DNA of 64,000 bases, from NCBI GenBank assembly GCA_033439295.1, contig JAVTLE010000007.1, forward strand, positions 806,001-870,000. The letters run 5' to 3'. The notes beneath the pieces were generated by a model. That model was not told the origin of the DNA. It saw only the letters and a list, made by a program, of their open reading frames with translations, and did no database searches. The number at the start of each line of letters is the position of its first letter. Position 1 is the first letter of the stretch. This document shows positions 7,239 through 64,000 of this stretch, one piece after another. Source of the DNA: Deuterostichococcus epilithicus. Lineage: Eukaryota > Chlorophyta > Trebouxiophyceae > Prasiolales > Stichococcaceae. The translations under genes and the position numbers were made by a program.

Positions 7239-15801
<8,563 letters not shown>

Positions 15802-16236: not shown

Positions 16237-18007
16237 TCACCGACTCAACAGCCAGTTCCCCAGTGCTGCAGCGGCGAGCAGCTGCCGCACGGCAAGCACC
16301 TCCTTGCGGCAGCTGCTCAGCGCCGGGTGTGTCAGCACGAGTGCCTGCCAGCCAGCTAGCAGGGCCACGCCGCCCGGCTTTGACCTCCCTGCCGCCACGG
16401 CCTGCTCCTCATGCCGCTGCTTCAGGCGCAGCGCAGATTCCCCAGCTGAAGCCAGTGCCGCTTGCAGATTTGCCAGCCCGCCGGCCAGGGTTGCACCGCA
16501 CGGCGCACGCGTGCGCACGCGCACGCGTTCCGCACGCGTGCGCACGGCCGCACGGCTGTGAGCACTGCCGTGCGCACGTTGTCAGACGCTGTCAGACAGT
16601 GATGTAATCCAGCTAGACAACAGTTGCCGGCATGCTACTGCAGCTGCAAATGAGACGCAACCGCACATCACCGCCGTGTAACATGTTGCATACATCATCT
16701 CAGCGCATAAGATATATGTGCAGTGAGGTTGTATGCATTGTTCAGCCTGTTATGGCCCAGCGCAGCCTGTTTCTTCATTCCCCTGGGGGATTAACACAAG
16801 CAGCCGTGCGAAAGTGCCGTTCCCTGCCGTGCGACGTGCGCACGCGGTGCGCACGCGTGCGCACGGCCGCACGTCAGTGTAAAGTGACGTGCGGTGCAAC
16901 CCTGCCGCCGGCCCTGAAGCCGGCCGCGGCCACAAATGCTGACGCCGTCGCGTCCCTCTCCGCGCCGCATCTAGCGCGGAAGCCGCCCCACAGCCGCGTC
17001 TGCAGCCAGTGCGTCACCGCGGCTGCCGCGACAACGGCGGCGCAGTCCTCCGCGGGCCGCATGTCGTCGTTGCCAGAGGCGTCGGCCGCCACGCAGCCGG
17101 GCTCGTGCAGGCCGCCGGCGGCCAGCAGGCTGTCTGCTGCGGGACAGACGACCGCCCGCAGCAGCAGCTCCTCGGCCTCATGCTGCCCCAGAATGCCGGC
17201 GGCCTCTCTTGCGAACGCGCTGGCCAGCATTTTGCCGCTGTCGTGCAGCATGCAGAAACGCACGAATCGGGACGACACCGCCATGTCACCGGCGGAAAGG
17301 CGGCCAAGCCACCGCTGGAAATGCCGTCGCTGGGCCTGCCGCCGTCGGCATACGTCAGCAACTCCCGGTCTTGTCTCGGCGCGGCGGCCGGGGACTTTGC
17401 GGAGGGGCCAGCGGCGGTTGCACTGGACTGCAGGTGCCTTGTGGCCGTGGCAATCCTGGCGTGCATGCCCGCGGCCAGCCGGGCCGTCTCCAGGTCCTGG
17501 CCGTTCTGATGCCGCCGCGTCACCCTTACGCTTCCTGCACAATTCGACTCTACTAGACCGGAGCGACAATTGTTGCCAACCTTGCAGTCATGCGGCCACA
17601 CGTTTGCATTTGCCAACAGCACCTGAGCGATCTCTCTGCATGATGCAGTGCATCAGCTTGCGCGGTGCCAAAGCGTAACAAGCAGAACAGTACCCACGCA
17701 AATGCATGGACGCTCACATTTGCACGAAGCTCAGGCGGCCCAGCATGTAAATGAGGCGCGCCGTCAGCGGCGGCATGTTGACGATGCGCCGCCCACCCAG
17801 CGCCGCCATATGGGCCGGCGCCAGCGGCTTGATCACTAGCGATGCGATGCAGATGATGTCGTGCCAGCGCGACAGCAGCATCGCCAGGCGGATGGGCCCC
17901 GTCAGCTGCGCTTGCAGCCAAGCCGCACCGTCCAGCACCAACAGCAGCTGCCACCGCAGGTTGCCCGACGCCCGGTGGGATGCAGCCAGCGATGCTGGAA
18001 AGCTCAT
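16237..18007 (-). CDS. Uncharacterised protein, coding region interrupted by a MITE and an apparent frameshift
   Basis: Family not recognised. The first exon (18007-17726) encodes MSFPASLAASHRAS followed by hydrophobic stretches (LRWQLLLVLDGAAWL, WHDIICIASLVI), suggesting membrane association. It joins in phase to an exon beginning about 17508 (NGQDLETARLAAG). Strong coding bias then continues in a different frame from about 17330 (RWLGRLSAGDMAVSSRF) to 16905, with no usable intron between, so a 1-base shift or sequence error is inferred. The frame ends GFRAGG at the border of a 419-bp element and resumes after it as GLANLQAALASAGESALRLK, ending at the stop at 16237. Reading straight into the element gives an early stop at 16874. 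Either this is a disrupted allele or pseudogene, or the element is removed at RNA level by a route I cannot see. Confidence 0.5.
16478..16485. repeat. Left target-site duplication, CCGCCGGC
   Basis: The eight bases CCGCCGGC directly precede the left inverted repeat and are identical to the eight bases that follow the right inverted repeat. Eight-bp duplications are characteristic of hAT-superfamily insertions. Confidence 0.85.
16486..16904. mobile_element. Non-autonomous hAT-like element (MITE), 419 bp
   Basis: The element begins with CAGGGTTGCACCGCACG (16486-16502) and ends with its exact reverse complement (16888-16904): 17-bp perfect terminal inverted repeats. It is flanked by a perfect 8-bp direct duplication, CCGCCGGC. 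The CAGGG terminus plus 8-bp duplication are hallmarks of hAT transposons. There is no transposase frame, so it is non-autonomous. Inside each end lie GC-alternating blocks (repeats of ACGCGTGCGCAC), including a 24-bp sequence shared by both sides near 16531-16554 and 16850-16873, possibly subterminal transposase-binding repeats and potentially Z-DNA-forming. Removing the element and one duplication restores an open minus-strand frame, so insertion was into coding sequence. Superfamily assignment is inferred from termini only. Confidence 0.85.
16905..16912. repeat. Right target-site duplication, CCGCCGGC
   Basis: This is the second copy of the 8-bp duplication, immediately after the right inverted repeat. 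Its perfect identity to the left copy points to a fairly recent insertion, though eight bases give little power to date it. Confidence 0.85.
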
Positions 18008-26900: not shown

Positions 26901-29900
26901 GCACAGACAAGCATGCCTGGGTAGTCCATGCCAACTTGCTCCGAGCCTGCACATAGATACTCCTGATGGACATGCACGCTTGGACTGGTGCCCCTGGCCA
27001 CGCCTGCGGCACTGCCGTGCAGCAACAACACGCCGATCGACATGCTGGGGCTGTACCGATCGGTGGTGGCGCACGGCGGCCTGGGCGCCAACGAGGCCTA
27101 CGACGGCGCAGGCCGCTACGCCGGCAGCATCAACTGGGTGCCGCCCCTCGTTCAAGCTCACCCCAGACCACCAAACACGCAATGTGTCTCAGCTTGGGCA
27201 TTGGCTGAGGTCGTGAAGTGCAGCGCTGCTGCCTGAACAAGCATTTCCTTCAGCTTGAGCCGTCAGGTTTTTCAAGGAATGCAAACTCCTCACATGTCCC
27301 CCGAAACAGCCGCATGCATCGCCGACCGCCGCTTGCACATGCGCAGGCGGGCGACATCTTCCCGGCGATGCACAACTACAAGCGCGGGCACCGCGCGACA
27401 TCCATAGGCACGCAGCTCCTCAGCAATTATCGCAAGTACCTGGCAGGGTACGAGCGCGCCTGGGCAGCCGTTGACCTGCCTGCCAACCCGCTGCCGCCGG
27501 TGCGTTGCCATTGGGGAGTCCATGTTATCCAGCTCTGAAATTGACGCTGCGTCCGCAATGGCCCTCTAGTCACAGCTGGGGTCCGCCTAGAGCGCGTGAG
27601 GGCGTGCATGATGCCAGTGCCATCCAGAGTGTGCGCACCACCACATTGGGGAGCCCTGACCCTGCAGCGCAAAGCTCCGCCTTTCTCCAGCCCCTGCAAT
27701 CTGTCTCATACCTCGCTGACTGCACCTTCTCAGCGCAAGTGGCGGACAAGCAGACTCACGCAATTCTGCATGATGGCCAAGTGCGTGAGCAACGACACGC
27801 ACAGGGTAGCGGGCCGCCGCCGCGCGGCGGCCGNNCNNNNNACGGCGGCGGGGCCGAGGGCTCGGCCGAGCCGGAGGGCGAGGCAGCAGCTGCGCTGCGG
27901 GCCGGCAGCCGGCAGGCGCGCAAGGCGCGGGCGCGTTTTCAGGAGACGGGCACCATCGGCAGCGACGAGGTGCGCGAAGTGCATTTGAAAGGGAGAACTC
28001 ACCCTGGCGCTGCAAGCCCGGATTTATTTGTCGTTCGATACAGGTGTCAGGAACAGCAGTGGGAGCGACGGAGCAGCGCAGCAGCTTGGTACGACGACTA
28101 CCTGACAGGCGCTGCCAAGGACAGACTTGAAAAGTGATGGTCGCAACTGCTGGTCTTGTCACGACAGGACTGGGTGCCGGCGGCGGCGCCGAGGGCGAAG
28201 CGACAGCGGCGCCGGCGCGGCAGCCCCAAGGCGGACGCCGATGAGGCCGGCGGCGGCAGCGCGGCAGCCAGTGACGCAGACATGCCGACGCCTGCGGCGC
28301 CAAAGGCGGCGGCAGCAGCTCAGGCGGCGCCGTCGGCGGCAGTGGCGGCGGGTGCCCCGGCGCCGGCGCCGGCGGTGCCAGGGGCAGTGCCGGCAGAAGC
28401 CCAGCCAGCCATCAGCGAGGCACAGATGGCGATGACGGCCGCGCAGCTGGCCGCGATCGAGTCTGCGGAGGACCGACCGGCGCCAGGCTCGATGCTGCTG
28501 ACGCGCGACCCGGCAGATCCTGCCAAGTGCGCCTTGCAGCGTACATGCGCAGTGCAACTGAGGTCTGCTGCCTCGGTTCGTACACGGCAGCAAGGCACAG
28601 TCTTGGGTTGCACATCAGGACTGCACAGTGCCGGGTCAGCGAAGCGTGATTGGCACCGAGCCAGGCGGCAGCCAGGGCTTATGGCCAATCACGTTCTGCT
28701 TCGTGGGCAAACTCATAGATCCGGATGACATGCGCGCCTCTGCAGGTTGTGGCCGGTGGTGGTGGCGGCTGCGGCGTCGCTGCCTGTTCGTGTGGTGGGC
28801 GGCGGCGCGCAGAGCCACGCCTGCCCGCCGGTGCTGCGGCCGCTGGCTCAGGCGGCGGCGAGCGGCGCCGTGGCGGACGCGCTGCCCGTGGCGCTGCTCG
28901 GCAGCTGTGCCATGGGGTGCGCAATTTTTGCAAGTTGAAAACATGCCATTGCAGGTTCTGAGATGCTGGACTGGGTACCATGGCAACACCTGCTCGTGTA
29001 TCGACGACCATACGCATGCGCAACAGGAAGCCAGGCAGCTGTCGCCGGGATGCGTCTGCACGGGCGGCTGCAGCAACCGACGAGCGCTTGCGGCATTGAT
29101 CTCACCGTCTTGAACCTTGCAGGTGGGTGGCGCGGGAGTCGTGCCTGCAGTTTTCGGAGGCGGACGCAAAGCCGGCTCCGGGGGAGGTGCCCAGCGCCGA
29201 CGGCGTGCCGCCGCCCGACGGCGGACTGCACGCGCGCGCGCTCAAGCTGGCCGTGCAGCTGCGGCGCAGCGGCCCCGGCTGGCAGGTAAGCATTACCCTG
29301 TTCGATGCGGGCATGTGAGCAATCGAAGGTCGACGCGAATCATGACTCAGCAGCCGCATCGTGCGTGTGCGCCGTCAGGTCGCCTGTGCAGCTGCATTCA
29401 ACACGCACGCTTCGGCCTGGGGCCACAGTCCGGCACCCGCCACGACAACTGTTGTGCTTCGCCCTTTTTATATCTCTTCAGGATGCGTCAGCGATGCTGA
29501 CGTCCTCATCGCTGATGCCCTTCCCTCGTGATGTGGTACTGCAGGCGGCGGCGCAGCAGGCGGTGCACGCAGCGGGCACGCGGCAGGTGGCGGCGCGGCT
29601 GGCGGCGCTGGAGGGCGCGCTGCCGCTGGGCGCACAGCGCGACGCCTCCTGGGCGCCNTGGGCCGCCTGGCGCTCCGCCCTGGCCGCCGCCGAGTCGCCG
29701 TCGCAGCTGGCGCCGCTGGTGCGCGCCCTTCCTCTGCGAACCCAGCATCACGACAGGCGAAGCGCTGCTGGCTTTGCCTCGGAGCGCACGCCGCCCACAT
29801 GGCTTCTGCTCCTTACTCCTGGCCACCCTTGCCGCGCACTGTGCGGTGCAGTCCCAGCATCGGCGCTCGTTCGTTAACCATCGCCCAGACCCCACGCACC

Positions 29901-55000: not shown

Positions 55001-58000
55001 GCAGCCGAGCCAGCAGCCCAAAGCGGCGTCGGCACGAACAGTGCCACAGCCGCTGTGGCCTCGGTCGTGGCAGCCGGGTCGTCGNCAGCAGCCGGCCGNT
55101 CCGCCGACTGCGTCCCAGCCGCGAGGGCCCAGCCGGCAGCGGCGCCGTCGTCCGGCGCTCTGCCCGCAGCTGCGCGGCCGGTGACCCCCGCGGACGCGGG
55201 CTCCGGCGCGAGCGAAGCGTTCCCCGACATGAGGCCGCTGCGGCGGGCGCCTGCAAAGGCGGCGCCGCAGCCGCGGAAACATCTGGGCGGCCCACTCGTG
55301 CAGCAGCTGAGCCTCTCTGTGCCGCTCAGCCTGGTCGCCGCCTCGCAGGTGTGTTCAACAAGTCGTGCCTGGATTAGGGTTTAGGGTTTCAGTGAGAGCT
55401 GTAGCAAGACAGGGTGAATGCAGTGACGAGTTGCAGACGCTGCGGCACCTCGTGGCTGTGTGACGGTCTGTGTGCGTGGCCGTGTGAACTACCTGCAACG
55501 CAGTCGACATGCATCCTGCGCTGCTCTGCTCTACAAAGGGAATGGTTAGTGGCATGTCGAGCAGCCCCTGCTTCTCACATTTGGCTGCGGGGTTCTCACA
55601 GGAGCATTCATGCGTTCATGTTTGAAGGTCATGTGTGTGCAGGCGGCAGTCAGCCCGGCGACGGCGCCCAGCCTCTTCGGCGAACTGCTGCGGCGGCCGC
55701 CGGGGGAGCGCGCCCACCTGCAGGAGGCGCTGCTGGCTCGGGCGCCGCCACCTCTCCCAGCTGCGGCGGCAGCCGGCAGGAACGGCACCTATGCCAGCCC
55801 ACTGCTCAGCTTCAGGTCCTACAGGTGCCAGCCATCTGCCAATGTGTACCGCATCGGCATGGGCTCGCGTCCATGCTGACACCTGCACTTGAATGCGATT
55901 ACAATTGCGGCGTCATCCTGGAGGCACCTGGTGCGTCCAGCTGCGGCCTGCCTCCAGGGCGTGCATGCTGCCTTGCAACTGTCCGGTTCACACTCGAGAA
56001 TGGTGTTTTGCACGGAGCCTCCCGAGGAGATGCCAGCACGATCCATCCACACCCGCGCAGGCTGTGCCCGTCGTACAAGACAGTCGCGCGGCTGCCGCTG
56101 CTGTCGCCCGCCTTTGCGCACGCGCTTGACCCGCTGTGGCCGCTGTGCCCCTTCGAGACGGCGGTGCGAGGCGCCTGTCGCGCTGCCGCATGCGCATACC
56201 AGATGCGGGCGGACTACGCGCTGCCGCCCGCCGCCGTGCTGCAGGACGTCTACAACCTCGTGGACAGGTGAGCCGGGTCTGGGCCTGAGGTGATCACCCT
56301 GCCTACCGGCGCGCACGCGGACCATGCGCCGCCGCCGGCAGCCGTGCTGCAGGGCGCCTTCAACGTTGTCGACAGATGGCAGCGGCATCCAAACCTTGAT
56401 AGCACCTGTTCCTGTCGATGGGCCACATCACGCGCTGCCGCCCGCCGTGCTGCAGGAGATCTGTCAACTCGTCAGCAAGAATCAAAGCAACAAGCCTCCT
56501 GTTACTGAGCGCCCGTCAATCTTGCGCTGACGCCATTCATGCGGCAGGACGTCTGCAACTGTGTAGGGAGGTGCCTGGATTTGAGGCTGTCCAACCACAG
56601 AATGATCTTTGACGCCTGACGCATTCTCGACAAGTGCTGCAGCCTGCAGTGCTGCAGCGGCAGACACCTGGAGTTCCACAGAAGGTGCAGGGTGACTGTG
56701 TTGTGGGATATGAGACCCTCGCAACAGAGGGTCACCAGGAGCGCCTTCGTATTCCACGTGAACAGGGCGGGCGGCAAGCCGGGCAAGTCCGCGCTGGCGG
56801 CCAAGGCGGCAGAGATGGACGCCCTGGCTCGCCGCGCGGTGCGCACGGTTCCCTCGCGGCGGCCGCTGCCGGGCGGCGGTGCCGGTGATGGCGCGCCGCC
56901 CGCCAAGTGGCGCCGCCTCGTGCAGCCGGAGCATCGGGAGCTGGTGCGTGCCTGCTGGTCGCTTTGACGTGCCATGAAGTGTGTTCTGAAGCGTTCCACT
57001 GTCAGCTCGCTTCTGCTTCGGTATGGGCATAGCAACAGCTCGTGCTGCAGCTCGATCTGCGCACAAGAGGCTGCGATCACAGCGTGTGCTGTTGGTGCCT
57101 GTGCTACTGTTACAGGGATGCATGCATTGCATTGGCGAAACGGCCGACGTCAGCACTGCGCCTCGGCACTCGGTCCACTCTCTCGTGGCCTGTGCGTTCA
57201 CAGGTGATTGATGCGCCTGTGCCGCTGTACAACCCTCTTCCGGGCGCTTCCCTGGGGCAGGCCGCGCTTCATCGCGCCGCTCCCACGTTCGATGCAGCCG
57301 CCCTGACGGCTGCCGGGCCTGTGCCGCCCTCGCCGCTCGAGCAGCTGATGCCAGACCCGGGCCGACAAGGTGATGCCTGTTTTCGTGCTTTTTGCATATA
57401 ATTTGCATGTCTGTGCTCAGCAAATGCATGTTCAGAGCCTGATCTCCGCATGTCATTACACAGCAGGCGGTGACGGCAGGGACCGGGGGCACAGGGTCGA
57501 CAGCGCCCGCACCGGGCGCTACTTCTCGGAAGCGCCTGCAGCGCACCCCCGTGGCCAGGCGGGCCTGCCGGCGGGCCCCGCAGCNGCGCAGCCGGCCGGG
57601 GACGCCGCCGGCACGGTCGAAACNGGCCCCGNCCCAGCGTCCAGCCCGGCAGAGCTGGCCTGCCTTGCCGCCATCGCGCACCTGCGGCCGCTCAACAGCG
57701 GCGGCGACGCCGGCGGCGGCCTGACCGCGGCCGTGGCTCATGTGCAGCAGGCGCTCGCGGCGATGCCGGGAGTATCCTCTGGCGCACCCGGCGCAGCCGA
57801 AGCGTCTGCTGCTGAGCCGCTGCACTTGCTGCACCTGCGGCTGCTGCAGGCGGCGGTGGCAGCACCGCAGCCTGCTGACCCTGCCGGCCAGCGGGCCACC
57901 CCGCAGCAAGGGCGGCAGGGCAGCGGCGCAGGCGCTGATGGGGCTGCCGTCGCCGCCGCAACAGCGGTGGCGCCGGCGGAGCNGCTGCGGCGGGCGACTG

Positions 58001-61000
58001 CAGCCGCAGTCGCGGCGGCGCCTGGCAGCTACGCGGTGTGCTGTGCCGCGGCGGACGCGGTGGCGCGGCCACAGGATGCTGTGGCCACCCTGCAGCGCGG
58101 CATCACGGCTATCAGCAGCAGCACCAGCTTCCCAGGTACGCCTCCTCCTGTGCAACCGTCCGACAGAACGCGTGTTGCCAGTGGCTGCACCTCGTCACAT
58201 CATGGATGGACACATCGGACGAAGTGCACCTACAGGGATGAGTATTGTTCGACCACAGTTGCTCAAACCCTTCAGGCCCAGCCCCCCCGCTTTGCGCAAC
58301 ACGCACTGCAGGCGAGCGTGCGGGCTGCCTGCTGGACCTGGCGCTCCGGCTGCTGGCCACCTGGTCGGCCGCGGGGCAGGCGGGCGCGGCCGGCGCCTGG
58401 CTCGCCGGTCTGCTGCATGACGCGGCGTCTCTGCCGCCCGGCGCTGCCGACGCCCGGCCGGCAGGTGACTCAAACTGCGGGCTCCCAGTCCTCCGTATGT
58501 TTTCTTTGACAGATGCTTCACAGCATGTGTTTCTGTGTGCCTCTTGATGGAGTCACGGGCAGGACGGCGGCACAAGCCGCCTACACACGGAACTCAGCCA
58601 CTTGTGCCATGGCGCCTGTCCGTCAGCTGATGCCGCAGCAGGCTGCCAGCTGCACCCGCGCTTGCTCTTGCTCAGTTGTTCCACCATCAACGAGGCCAGA
58701 ATATTTTCCAACACTGCAAGTTTTGAACCAGTCTGAACCACCCTCATGTTTCCCGCTGCGCAGCGGCGGTGCCGGATGCACAGCCGGGCGAAAGCTCCCG
58801 CCGCGCGCTGCTGCTGGGACTGCGCGGGCAACGGGAGTCGCTGGCGGTGCTGTGGCTTGCCTCTGCGCACCTCACAGCCACTGGCGAGCTGCCGGCGACA
58901 GTGCTGCGAAGGTGAATGCTGACTGGCTCCTGCTCTTCTGGGCTCTCAGCTCGGCATGTGCGAGGGCTGCTGAGCACCTGCAAGGCACGCTGCACGCAGT
59001 GCACTGACTCACTGCATCTATGGCAAGGCCCTGTGAGACCACCCCTGATCCTGGCAGACGTCGCCATGTGATGCCGGCTCCTTGCCGAGGAGTTGACACA
59101 GCCGCTACATCAGCACTTTCCTCACCCGACTTCCTGCCATAATGGGCAGCCGCCTCAGGATCTTGTTGATGCAGGCCGAAAGCCAGGCTCTGATGAGCAT
59201 GCCTGACGGAGATGGCACCGTTGCACGCAGGCTGGGGCTGCCGCAGCGGGCGGAGGCGGTGGCATGGACGGCCCCACCGCCCGCTAGCTGCCAGTCGCGT
59301 GTGAATCAGATCCTGCGGCTGGCCGTCGGCGGTGGCATTGCCGGCCTGGATCTGCTGTCTCCGCTGGAGGTGTCCTTTTTCCTGAGACAACGCTGATCAA
59401 TCCGCACTTCGAACCTGGTTGCTGCGGTGCTTTGGCACACAGGTGGCGGCATCCTGTGATGGTCTTGTTCAAGGTCTGGGGTACGGACACATACGCTCGA
59501 TGTGCACCCGCATCTTATCATGTCGCATCGTCATCCTACCCTGATGATGTTTGCTTGCACCTGCGACCAGTGTGTTTCACACATCCAGTCGTATTGACCT
59601 GTCCCCCCTTCCCTTCACATGGCGCAGGTCTGCAGTGCCGCGGACGCAGCTGCGGCGCCGGGTGCAGCCCGCGCGGCGCANGCCCTGNCGCTGACGCTGC
59701 TGAGCTGGGCGGCCGCCACGGGGCAGTCGCCGCTGTTGTCGGCGCACCAGCTGCTGCCGCTGGCGCCCGCGGCCGCCGGCGGGGATGGCGCCGCTGCCCG
59801 GCCACGCCGCCAGACATCAGCAGCGGGGCTGGCGTCTCAGTATGCAGACGGGCTGCAGCCCGCGACGCCGCTGTCGCCAGCGGCGGCATGCGCATACGCC
59901 GCCAGCCTGGCTACCTCCNAAGCGGCTGTGCGGCTGCTGGGTGTCGTCNCGAGCCACGGTCCCGCCCCGCGACCCGCGCCGCAGCTCGATCGCGGCGGCG
60001 CAGCCGGCAGCGCCGGTGGCGGCGGCGGCCTGTCGGCAGCGGACCTGCGAGCCTGGGCGGCGCTGCCGTGGCCGCAGGGCTGCACAGAGCTGGGGCTCGT
60101 TGCGGTGCGCGAGGCGGTGACGATGGCGCTGCCGCAGTGCATCGCCGAGGCCGCCACCGCCGCCGAGGGCGGCGCTGGCGACAGCGGGGGCACAGCGTTC
60201 AGTCCCGAGCAGGCATGGCGCGCCGCATGGCAGGCTGCAAAGCGCCTGGTGGGCTCTGTCGAGGCGGCACTGGACGCCACCACGGGCATCACGGCGGCGG
60301 CTGCGACGGCCGCCTCCTGCCAGCTGTCGCAGGCGGCGTACTGCGTGCTGGCGGCGGAGGCACTGTGGGCCGAGGGCGGCGGTCCGGCGCTGGCGGCGGC
60401 GGTACTGGCGGCCGCCGCCTGCGACAACGGCCTGCCGCACGGGCGCGAGCGGTGGCGCTGGCGCTGGCGGCCGGCGCGGCGCTGGCCAGAGCGGTCGTAC
60501 CGCGGCCGTCGCCGAGCCGCAGCAGCCGCGGCAGCAGCAGCAGCAGCGGCAGCCGCGGTGGCGACCGGCGCAGCAGGAGCTTCAGCAGCCGCTGCAGCCG
60601 CAGCAGCCGCAGCGATGGCGACAGCTCCCGCAGCCGCAGCCGCAGCCAAAGCCACAGCCGCACGCCTGCCGGCCGCGGCGGCTCGCCCGGCGGCCGCGGC
60701 GGCTCGCCACCCAGCAGCATCCGCATCCGCATCCGGCTTCACAGCAGATCGCCGGCCCGGTCCTCCTCGTGGACATCGCGCTCCTCGTCTCGAAGCGCCA
60801 CTTCTCGCAGCCAGAGCCGGAGCCTCAGCCTCAGCCTCAGCCACAGCCGCACACCGGGCCTGCCGGGTGTCAGCGCCGCGCACGCAGCAGCAGCGGATGA
60901 GGAGCCTGAGGCCGGCGAAATTGCGGGCGAGACGCTGCCCGTCACCAGCCCGGGCGCCGCATCAGCCCGCAACCGGGCAGCCCAGCGGCCGCGCTCGCCA

Positions 61001-64000
61001 GGAAGATCGCTCTCCCGGCGCCGGCGTCGCTCGGCGTCGTCTGACGGCGGCGACCGCAGCAGCGGCAGCTCCAGCGGCTCCGCGGAGGCCTCTTTCGAGT
61101 CAGCTGACGGCGGCGAGTCATCCTTTGACGGCGGCGAGGCGCCCGACGCCGCAACGGTTGCGAGCCTGCTGTGGCGCCTGGCACAGCCGCCAGCAGAGGA
61201 CACTGGGTGAGCCGCTGACAGTGCCCCACCAGGCATGCAATGTCTTGAACCTACGCCTGCCGAGGGTGTGCGAGGTTGTTACCATGCGCGGCTTCCTCCG
61301 CGTGCTCATGATCAGGTGTGGCGGCGGCGTGCCACCGCCAGAAGGCACTGCTCTGCCCCTCCTTTGAGTGCTCCCCATCTGGGGTCTCAAACGTCGTCCG
61401 TCACCAGCTGCGCTTCTTGAGTCGCCAGACGCGCTGGCCGACAGCACCCACCGAGGCATGACGCTGACGCGTGGCAGCGGACCCTAAACCATAAACCCTG
61501 TGCAGGCCCGTCGATAGCTTGCCGGCGGCGTCTCTGGACGAGGGCGAGGTGCGCCACGGCGCTGGCTGGGACTTCGGCGGCGCTGGCCCGGAGGCTTCGG
61601 AGCGCGTGCATGCGGCGCTCAACCTGGCGGCGTACCAGGCGCTGGCCGGCGACGGCGCGGCAGCGTTTGCCGNCGCCGAGCACGCCGTCGTCGCGGCCGA
61701 GGGTGAGGCGCAGCTGCTGGGCTTTGGGATCGGACTTGGAGTGCACGCATCTCCTGGGCGCGCTGTCATGCTGCAAGCGGGCTGGCACAATGGCTGGTGG
61801 CAGTGCCGGACTTTTCAATGTCGGCTGTGCAGTCGACAGAGTTTGCTCCAGAACCTCAAGTTTGCAGAAGTTCGAGACTGATTCCGGGTTGCGTGTGCAG
61901 GCTGTGACGCGGACCTGCAGCGGCACGTGTGGCAGGAGGCCCTCGCTCTGGCCGCAGCGGCGCTGACGTCAGAGGCGCCGATCGTTGACTGTCAGCAGCC
62001 TGCGCCAGCCGCAGTCCAGGTGCGCTGCTCGAGGCCACATCTGCGACCCCTGTCCTTCCATCTTGAGCATCGCAATGGCATTCATCAATCTGACTGTTGC
62101 CTCACAGCCTCTGTGTCTGGGTCTAGCAGCAGTCTGCGGCTGTTCGTACGAGTTGACAGGTATTGCTTTTGGGAAAGCGCCCAGAACCACGGCGTCACGG
62201 TTGCCACCCTTGCAGGCCGAGGCGAAGGCGGGCAGCAGGGCCGGCTGGGGCGGCTGGGACATCGCCAGCAGCTTCGCCGCCACCGCCGCCGCCGCACCCT
62301 CNCATGGCAACACCGCANCCGCCGGCGCGCCCCCGCAGGGCGCGGCTCCCAGCCCGCCGCAGGGCGCTGCTCCTGCCGGTGACGGCGGCACGGCCGTGTC
62401 CGCGNAGGCCGCCGCCGCAGCGCGAGAGGCGCGGCGGCAGCGCTTTGGCGGCTTCATGGCGATCGTGCGCCGGCTGCTTGTGGCCTGCCGCGCGCGCCGT
62501 GTGCCAACGCTGGCCGCGGCCCTGCTGCCCGTGGAGGTGTGCTTCCTACCTCTAGAAACAGAGGCAGCCAGCGAACACACCCGAACACATTTCACATTTC
62601 GCAGAACCGGGCACAGCAGGAACCTGCTGTGATGCGGCCAGTGCCAGTCATCAGTACCGCAACTGCAGGTCTTGCCCGACTGTCGTCGTCATTGCACAGG
62701 ACATGCGGCTGAGAGAGACGCTGGCAGGGGCGCCGGTGCGTGACGACGATGCCGCCGCGGCCGCGCTGGCGCCGCTGCTGCCGGCGCTGCTGCCGGAGGA
62801 GGCAGCGGAAGTCGCAGAAGCGGTCGGGGCCGCGCAGCCGCCATCGCCCGAAGTCGTCGACTTCCTGCTGTCTGTGGCCCCAAGGTGCTCGGCATGTTCC
62901 AGACAGCATGGTTCAAAGCGATTACGCGATTAACCGCCACGTGCTGTGCTGTGCTAAGCTGGGCTTCTGTCTTGCACCTGCTAAAGCTGGACTGCCCAGA
63001 AGGAACAGCGTGTGGGCTGGGCTGACCATGCGCAGGCGGCCGCGGGACGCGCAGTGGGCGGCGTGGGCGCTGCCGCTCGCGGCGGGCGCGCTGGCGCGGA
63101 GCCGCCCCGCCGCGCCGCCCGCCGCCTGGCAGCAGACCCTGCTGCTGGCGGCGCAGGTTTGCGTCTCTGCAACAGTGCCTCCATCATATGTGTCCTGTCT
63201 GAGCGTGCTGCTGGTGCGCCATATCCCCTCCTGCTCTGCGTTAAATTGCCTACTTTGATCTGGGACTGTCGCATGTTGCACGGGGCACAGCGTGGCAAGA
63301 GCATCATGTCTGGAGGTCTTGTCCCGGAGGGAAGCGACTGGAGTCACAGCCAGTCCAGCCTTGAGTTGAGTACCGGCAAGTCTCAGCCTCAATCATGACT
63401 GGAAGTACGCGCCCTAGTCGAGGGTAGTAGACGTTGCTCACAGGGCCTGCAACGGCGCAGCGACCTTCGTGCATACATGTAGCACAGGGGGTCTAGCAGC
63501 AAAAGCGACTCAACGCTCCCCCACCCGCCGACCCTCTCGGGCCCCTCAGCGGGCACACTGCACCACAGGCGGGCCTGTTGGCGCCGCGGCGACCGCCGCG
63601 CACACTGCCCGCACAGGTGTCGAAGGCGGCTGAGCGGGAGCTGGCGGCTGCGGCGGTGGCGGCGCATCCGCGCAGCCTGGCGCTGTGGCGCAAGCACGCC
63701 GCGCTGCAGGCGGCCCTGGGTCCGGCCTGTCGACAATCATGCACCTCCGCACATCCCTGCACTCTAGGCCCCACACATCACCATGAAACCCTCTGCCCTG
63801 GCCTGCTGCAGCCTTCTACGTCCTGGAATCGCTGCACATGAGCAGGCCTCTTGCGTGTGTTCATCGTTGATCCGACGACGAAGCGCTTTGCAGGGCCTAG
63901 CAACTCTTTGAACATGTGTAGAACTAGCCTGTTTTGGCTGGCGACGCAGCGCCCTGCTGCTGCTGATTGCTGTCCCGCGCTGTGCTGTGCTGCCACAGGC
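52053..64000 (+). CDS. ZFC3H1: ZFC3H1-like RNA-exosome adaptor with RS-rich segments, 3' end outside window
   Basis: ZFC3H1 proteins link nuclear polyadenylated RNA to the MTR4/exosome (PAXT). The first exon 52053-52146 (MDWQRSEVRDPPSHLPQYLL) joins in phase to 52334 (VPLFDGQPASEAF). Then come an acidic patch (DPDLIITFDDDDDIFDD), Ser/Gly runs, a coiled coil (EEALYEQQVAEEARLRRQLL, from 53534) and an Arg-Ser domain (about 54300-54850). YASPLLSFRSYR (about 55790) and LCPFETAVRGACRAAACAYQ (about 56147) match the family's core and zf-C3H1 motif. HAT-like helical repeats follow from 57.4 kb to the window end (for example LAAAAVAAHPRSLALWRKHA). A second RS segment lies at 60.5-61.2 kb. The stop at 61208 is avoided by splicing GG/GTGAGC at about 61206-61207 to an exon after TGCAG at 61505, in phase. 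A frame change near 60450 has no intron. Several Ns. Middle exons approximate. Confidence 0.72.
56205..56570 (+). repeat. Four degenerate ~105-bp tandem copies of an exon end
   Basis: The zinc-finger exon of the ZFC3H1-like gene ends ADYALPPAAVLQDVYNLVDR (56207-56271). The intron that follows holds related copies: ADHAPPPAAVLQGAFNVVDR (about 56317-56377), HALPPAVLQEICQLVSK (about 56429-56479), and a short RQDVCNCVGR (about 56539-56571). The shared GTGCTGCAG block is at 56236, 56344 and 56447; the fourth copy is shorter. The last copy has its own AG acceptor and GTGCCT donor. Confidence 0.7.

Follow-up and report, generated by a model that had tools for sequence, protein, structure and literature searches.

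In maize, the element Ds2 has been described as the ends of an autonomous element placed around unrelated filler DNA (PMC3260210), while Hermes inserts at 8-bp targets that follow nTnnnnAn and uses its BED domain to bind subterminal repeats (PMC10368747). The locus compared here with these systems lies in the green alga Deuterostichococcus epilithicus, within a window (the whole stretch of 64,000 nucleotides that was analysed) that corresponds to C6:806001-870000 of a host genome searched as 46.8 Mb in 21 contigs. An original prediction, made from the letters of the window, described a 419-bp segment with perfect inverted ends of 17 bp that is flanked twice by CCGCCGGC, and this description has turned out to be exact to the base. 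From the ends, the duplications, the genomic family, the ends held in common with elements that bear a transposase and the near-identity among the youngest copies, all of which are direct observations, the segment is interpreted as a non-autonomous DNA transposon of the hAT superfamily (a MITE), in which hAT ends surround unrelated filler and which was spread by transposase supplied in trans, an interpretation to which a probability of about 0.96 is assigned.

The host genome and the element in the window

Among ten contig ends inspected over 90 bases each, three carry repeats, namely AAACCCT at the starts of C1 and C19 and a degenerate TTTAGGG at the end of C19, TTTAGGG being the telomere type of plants and green algae. 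A search for the chlorophyll a/b-binding family yielded 39 matches in the genome, with one of the 14 control genomes (a cyanobacterium) also positive. The window itself contains 36 scattered N bases (for example at 8635-8641, 15079-15634, 27834-27841 and 55085-62405), several of which fall at 15.1-15.6 kb and at 55-62 kb.

The coordinates of the element, of its insertion site (C6:822478-822912 in the host genome) and of related elements are given in Table 1. The two 17-nt arms are 100% complementary and form a short terminal inverted repeat (TIR) beginning with CAG (CAGGGTTGCACCGCACG), a start that is common to many hAT ends, and inward of both ends lie blocks of alternating GC palindromes (GTGCGCAC, CGCACG and ACGCGT). 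Single-strand folding of the 419-bp element gives z = -9.1 relative to 100 shuffles, a strong fold that is expected because of the long inverted ends. At 419 bp there is no room in the element for a transposase of its own.

Table 1. Positions of the MITE, its insertion site and related elements (positions without a contig prefix are those of the window; TSD, target site duplication)
Feature	Position	Strand	Remark
TSD, left copy, CCGCCGGC	16478..16485	.	same 8 bases as 16905-16912
Non-autonomous hAT element (MITE), 419 bp	16486..16904	+	one of 25 trimmed genome copies
Left TIR, CAGGGTTGCACCGCACG	16486..16502	+	perfect 17-nt arm
Left subterminal block	16503..16576	.	GTGCGCAC / CGCACG / ACGCGT palindromic repeats
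Interior filler	16578..16786	.	element positions 93-301, from alignment to long copies
Right subterminal block	16787..16887	.	three GTGCGCAC; with TIR, element positions 302-419
Right TIR	16888..16904	-	17-nt arm
TSD, right copy	16905..16912	.	identical to left copy
Open frame, 5' side of probable interrupted exon	16913..17587	-	open frame and codon composition; exon start putative
Open frame, 3' side of probable interrupted exon	16237..16477	-	stop at 16237-16239; same frame after removal
Long hAT element, C13	C13:2163567-2167164		3598 bp; same ends as MITE
Long hAT element, C6	C6:70433-74247		3815 bp, or 3635 bp counted from the inner repeated end; same ends
Transposase-element fragment	C1:2369277-2370421
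Transposase-element fragment	near C4:177435-178026
Second-family MITE copies	C16:271271-271750; C14:285770-286250; C14:359823-360312; C14:509096-509575; C16:607613-608100; C19:3664619-3665062; C12:2856938-2857417; C4:717454-717882

A genome-wide family with young copies

A DNA search with the element hit 76 places; many of these hits are secondary ones arising between ends, and about two dozen of the places cover most of its length. The 17-mer end occurs 45 times in exact form and 89 times when up to two mismatches are allowed, as compared with 8 occurrences of a reversed-pattern control, and the ends of the element are thus not a product of chance. Trimming provided 25 copies, the window copy counted among them, of which 20 measure 413-426 bp and the other five 384-403 bp. 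Perfect 8-bp TSDs flank 19 of these 25 copies and represent 19 distinct sequences, so that the anticipated copies with the same ends and different 8-bp flanks are indeed present; the remaining six have no perfect duplication, with agreement at 7/8 bases for C16:641332 and at 7/8 or fewer for the rest. Short and uniform length, multiple copies, TIRs and TSDs, by which a MITE is recognised, are all found in this family, and its varied 8-bp flanks, together with the full-length elements that have the same ends and hold hAT dimerisation domains (see below), bear out the description of the segment as a hAT-like MITE.

The nearest sister of the window copy, C11:728857, differs from it at 1 base in 419, in agreement with the recent movement that had been proposed, while the second-nearest (C1:1997390) differs by 2 substitutions and the next two by 6. 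The ten nearest copies diverge from the window copy by 3.2% or less, the median divergence over all pairs of copies is 5.3%, and the copy most distant from that in the window (C19:4271569) has reached 28%.

Two copies have peculiar surroundings. The copy at C15:1298709 is situated close to the middle of a near-perfect palindrome of 93 bases, with 46-nt arms around one base, which seems to be older than the insertion. At C18:792280 the flanks are inverted repeats, GTTGAAAC and, at a distance of two further bases, GTTTCAAC, in contrast to the direct duplications of the 19 copies described above.

Transposase-bearing elements and the origin of the MITE

Matches to the C-terminal hAT dimerisation domain (PF05699) above the Pfam cut-off lie in at least two places, C13:2166660 and C6:73713, this count being, like the other genome search counts, a lower bound. 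Both candidates were scored, and both (2/2) lie within elements bounded by the ends of the MITE. The occurrence of a hAT transposase between the same ends, as envisaged in the original prediction, is therefore realised in two elements of about 3.6 kb, on C13 and C6, which also share the subterminal repeats. Over 3.6 kb these long copies share 88% identity; the C6 element is flanked by a perfect TSD (TTTCCAGC), and the flanks of the C13 element agree at 3/8 bases and form no matching duplication. At C6:70433-70712, one end of the long element, the target duplication and the flank are tandemly repeated 180 bp apart.

Upstream of PF05699, in the same orientation and in order, pieces of DUF659 (PF04937) occur in separate frames; singly they fall below the Pfam cut-off, which the C13 copy exceeds only when its in-frame neighbours are included. 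A search for PF14372 gave no match, though its control was equally silent. By eye, the N-terminal region of the transposase shows a C..C..H..C pattern; no Pfam match to the BED finger was obtained in this region. A search of IMG/VR for relatives of a 272-aa N-terminal transposase piece gave eight stretches that fit a pattern, none of which was confirmed.

The N-terminal part of the C13 copy is split over two frames and the C6 copy has a TGA inside the dimerisation domain, and neither copy is plainly intact, so that both look damaged when their frames are read without intron models. The proposal that an active autonomous partner may exist thus holds for the existence of a partner family and stays conjectural as to present activity, given the apparent damage of both full-length copies. 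Whether this genome has lost its partner transposase, the youngest copies having been spread by a lost or unassembled source, is an evenly balanced question: this visible damage in two copies that are 88% identical, and the reduction of the further copies on C1 and C4 to fragments, speak for extinction, whereas an intact gene is possible because the damage was judged without intron models, and the assembly in which only a minimum of copies was counted has undetermined bases.

As to how the MITE arose, its left end (element positions 1-76, 16486-16561) shows 93% identity to the long copy on C6, and its right end 93% to the C13 copy and 87% to C6 (positions 295-419), the end blocks common to the MITE and the long copies measuring about 76 and 118 bp. 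The filler between them has no match in the C13 long copy and merely 12-nt chance matches (E 4.9) in the C6 long copy, and decayed MITE pieces at three further places in the genome (L033, L034 and L036) contain portions of it. Shared ends and an unshared interior indicate that the MITE is composed of ends plus filler, on the plan of maize Ds2, and simple deletion within one of the two long copies was rejected as its origin, the filler being absent from both. The ends of the long copies differ by 7 to 13% from the window copy, and young MITE copies resemble one another more than they resemble these ends, so that neither of the long copies appears to be the immediate source.

It may be envisaged that two hAT ends, each with its TIR and its palindromic subterminal repeats, came to lie around unrelated filler, and that a hAT transposase acting in trans spread the resulting element to about two dozen places. 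Such a transposase would excise the element and reinsert it at a staggered 8-bp target, presumably by cut-and-paste chemistry, and by analogy with Hermes its N-terminal zinc finger may recognise repeats of the GTGCGCAC type.

The insertion site

Removal of the element and one TSD rejoins a minus-strand frame of 307 aa (...GFRAGG-LANLQAALAS...). The restored frame had been taken as direct proof of transposition into coding sequence, and the restoration stands but carries little weight by itself, as the joined site is also open on the plus strand, in a 414-aa frame, and in GC-rich DNA openness alone is weak evidence. Codon composition was evaluated by means of a model built from 1080 codons in 20 light-harvesting stretches, which were hand-picked from the 39 chlorophyll a/b-binding matches, among those without stops, the last stretch and others further down the list having replaced some higher-ranked matches. 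According to this model the minus frame outscores the other five frames on each flank. On the left flank it scores +0.039, at the 75th-90th percentile of the best-of-six scores of 250-base window segments (median -0.242), and over the whole right flank -0.125, which corresponds to the 90th percentile for window segments of 675 bases (median -0.352). With +0.299, the stretch 16913-17300 lies beyond the 97th percentile of the two nulls, one made of 250-base and the other of 675-base segments, neither of them of that stretch's length.

The opposite view, that the element sits in non-coding DNA (an intron or intergenic sequence) and that the frame rejoins by chance in GC-rich sequence, is consistent with the 414-aa plus frame spanning the joined site, with a left-flank score that is within, not beyond, the upper quarter of window segments, and with the outcome of similarity searches: the joined frame had a single Pfam match, at E 0.4 and below its cut-off, seven neighbouring frames gave nothing up to E 1, and the right flank (16905-18000, and likewise its frame) occurs once in the genome and is without a paralogue, hence no empty site by paralogy. 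This view is nevertheless improbable, as the minus frame ranks first among the six on either side of the element and is in register after removal, whereas the 414-aa plus frame scores low (-0.285 for 16913-17300, -0.534 for the left flank). Insertion in coding sequence, as originally claimed, is thus supported by codon composition that favours one frame on both flanks, and the MITE has quite probably interrupted a 3' exon, an event that would remove about 80 residues from the C terminus of the host protein.

Subterminal repeats, target sites and superfamily

The placement of GTGCGCAC was examined in three elements, and in each of them the motif is confined to the outer 120 bp at the ends (6/6 sites in the MITE, 5/5 in the C13 long copy and 3/3 in the C6 long copy), which corroborates, as anatomy, the subterminal repeats that had been pointed out. 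In the target sites, T at position 2 or A at position 7 is found in 17 of 38 half-sites as compared with 22% in the flanks (p = 0.0016). A pyrimidine at position 2 or a purine at position 7 is found in 34/38, for which 50% was taken as the expectation in a test chosen after the counts had been seen. The target in the window, CCGCCGGC, has neither T2 nor A7 and is therefore off nTnnnnAn. A preference for hairpin targets was also considered and rejected despite one striking palindrome site, since the 19 sites together show no bias, the folding energy of the 19 joined perfect-TSD sites being no different from that of 296 flank segments (Mann-Whitney p = 0.58).

Elements of the P, Merlin and KDZ groups likewise produce 8-bp duplications. 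That the MITE belongs to one of these or another such superfamily and is merely hAT-like, a reading favoured by the deviating target in the window and by a T/A bias that is modest across the family, is very improbable and largely contradicted by the end blocks of about 76 and 118 bp held in common, since the elements having these ends carry a hAT dimerisation domain above cut-off as well as DUF659 pieces. Against the preferred hAT reading weigh the six copies and the C13 long element that have no perfect TSD, the 7 to 13% divergence of the long copies' ends, the DUF659 pieces that singly stay under the cut-off and the missing Pfam match to a BED finger.

A second hAT-like MITE family, with ends CAGGGTTCGGCCAAACG, was encountered at 27 places at up to one mismatch (control 0). 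Its MITEs measure 369-430 bp, and perfect 8-bp duplications were found in seven of the eight copies read. Three elements of 853 bp also have these ends (on C16, C7 and C18; L055:2003-2855, L056 and L057), and their flanks match at 8, 7 and 7 of 8 bases. They contain an ORF that shares 37-38% identity with the finger-like N-terminal region in the transposase of the first family, and this ORF is perhaps a captured or left-over hAT finger.

Concluding comparison with known systems

The MITE described here belongs to a small algal hAT family of a well known and well documented, ordinary kind, and the finding alters no concept. What it offers is a checkable hAT/MITE system in a small GC-rich algal genome, comprising non-autonomous copies, full-length partners, target sites and subterminal repeats, which may be of use for annotation, as strain markers and perhaps as a start for an insertional tool. 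A more far-reaching and rather doubtful possibility is that this low-copy family has been jumping very recently even though all transposase copies found look broken, driven by an unassembled source or by a transposase of the second, CAGGGTT-ended family, in which case the exon insertion would be a young and possibly strain-specific gene truncation. Among the papers listed in literature searches, none on the present family was recognised as judged by titles and abstract openings, which does not show that the family is undescribed.

Among described systems, the BniHAT-1 and BniHAT-2 families of Brassica nigra are likewise hAT MITEs; they are high-copy families of a plant genome, and the likeness lies in their description as hAT MITE families (PMC7385995). 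Hermes is similar in its 17-bp TIRs, 8-bp TSDs and subterminal repeats concentrated at the tips, one pair of which is a quasi-palindrome, and differs in the sequences of its ends and repeats, in its imperfect TIRs as opposed to the perfect ones found here, and in its BED domain, to which the algal transposase gave no match by profile search (PMC10368747). In comparison with Ac/Ds, the algal family has GC-rich palindromic GTGCGCAC repeats in place of AAACGG, is known from sequence alone and is small, with 25 trimmed copies as against 331 for Ds1, while both systems have an 8-bp TSD, TIRs shared between their members, non-autonomous elements that keep subterminal sequence around unrelated filler, as in Ds2, and a length of about 400 bp, as in Ds1 (PMC3260210).
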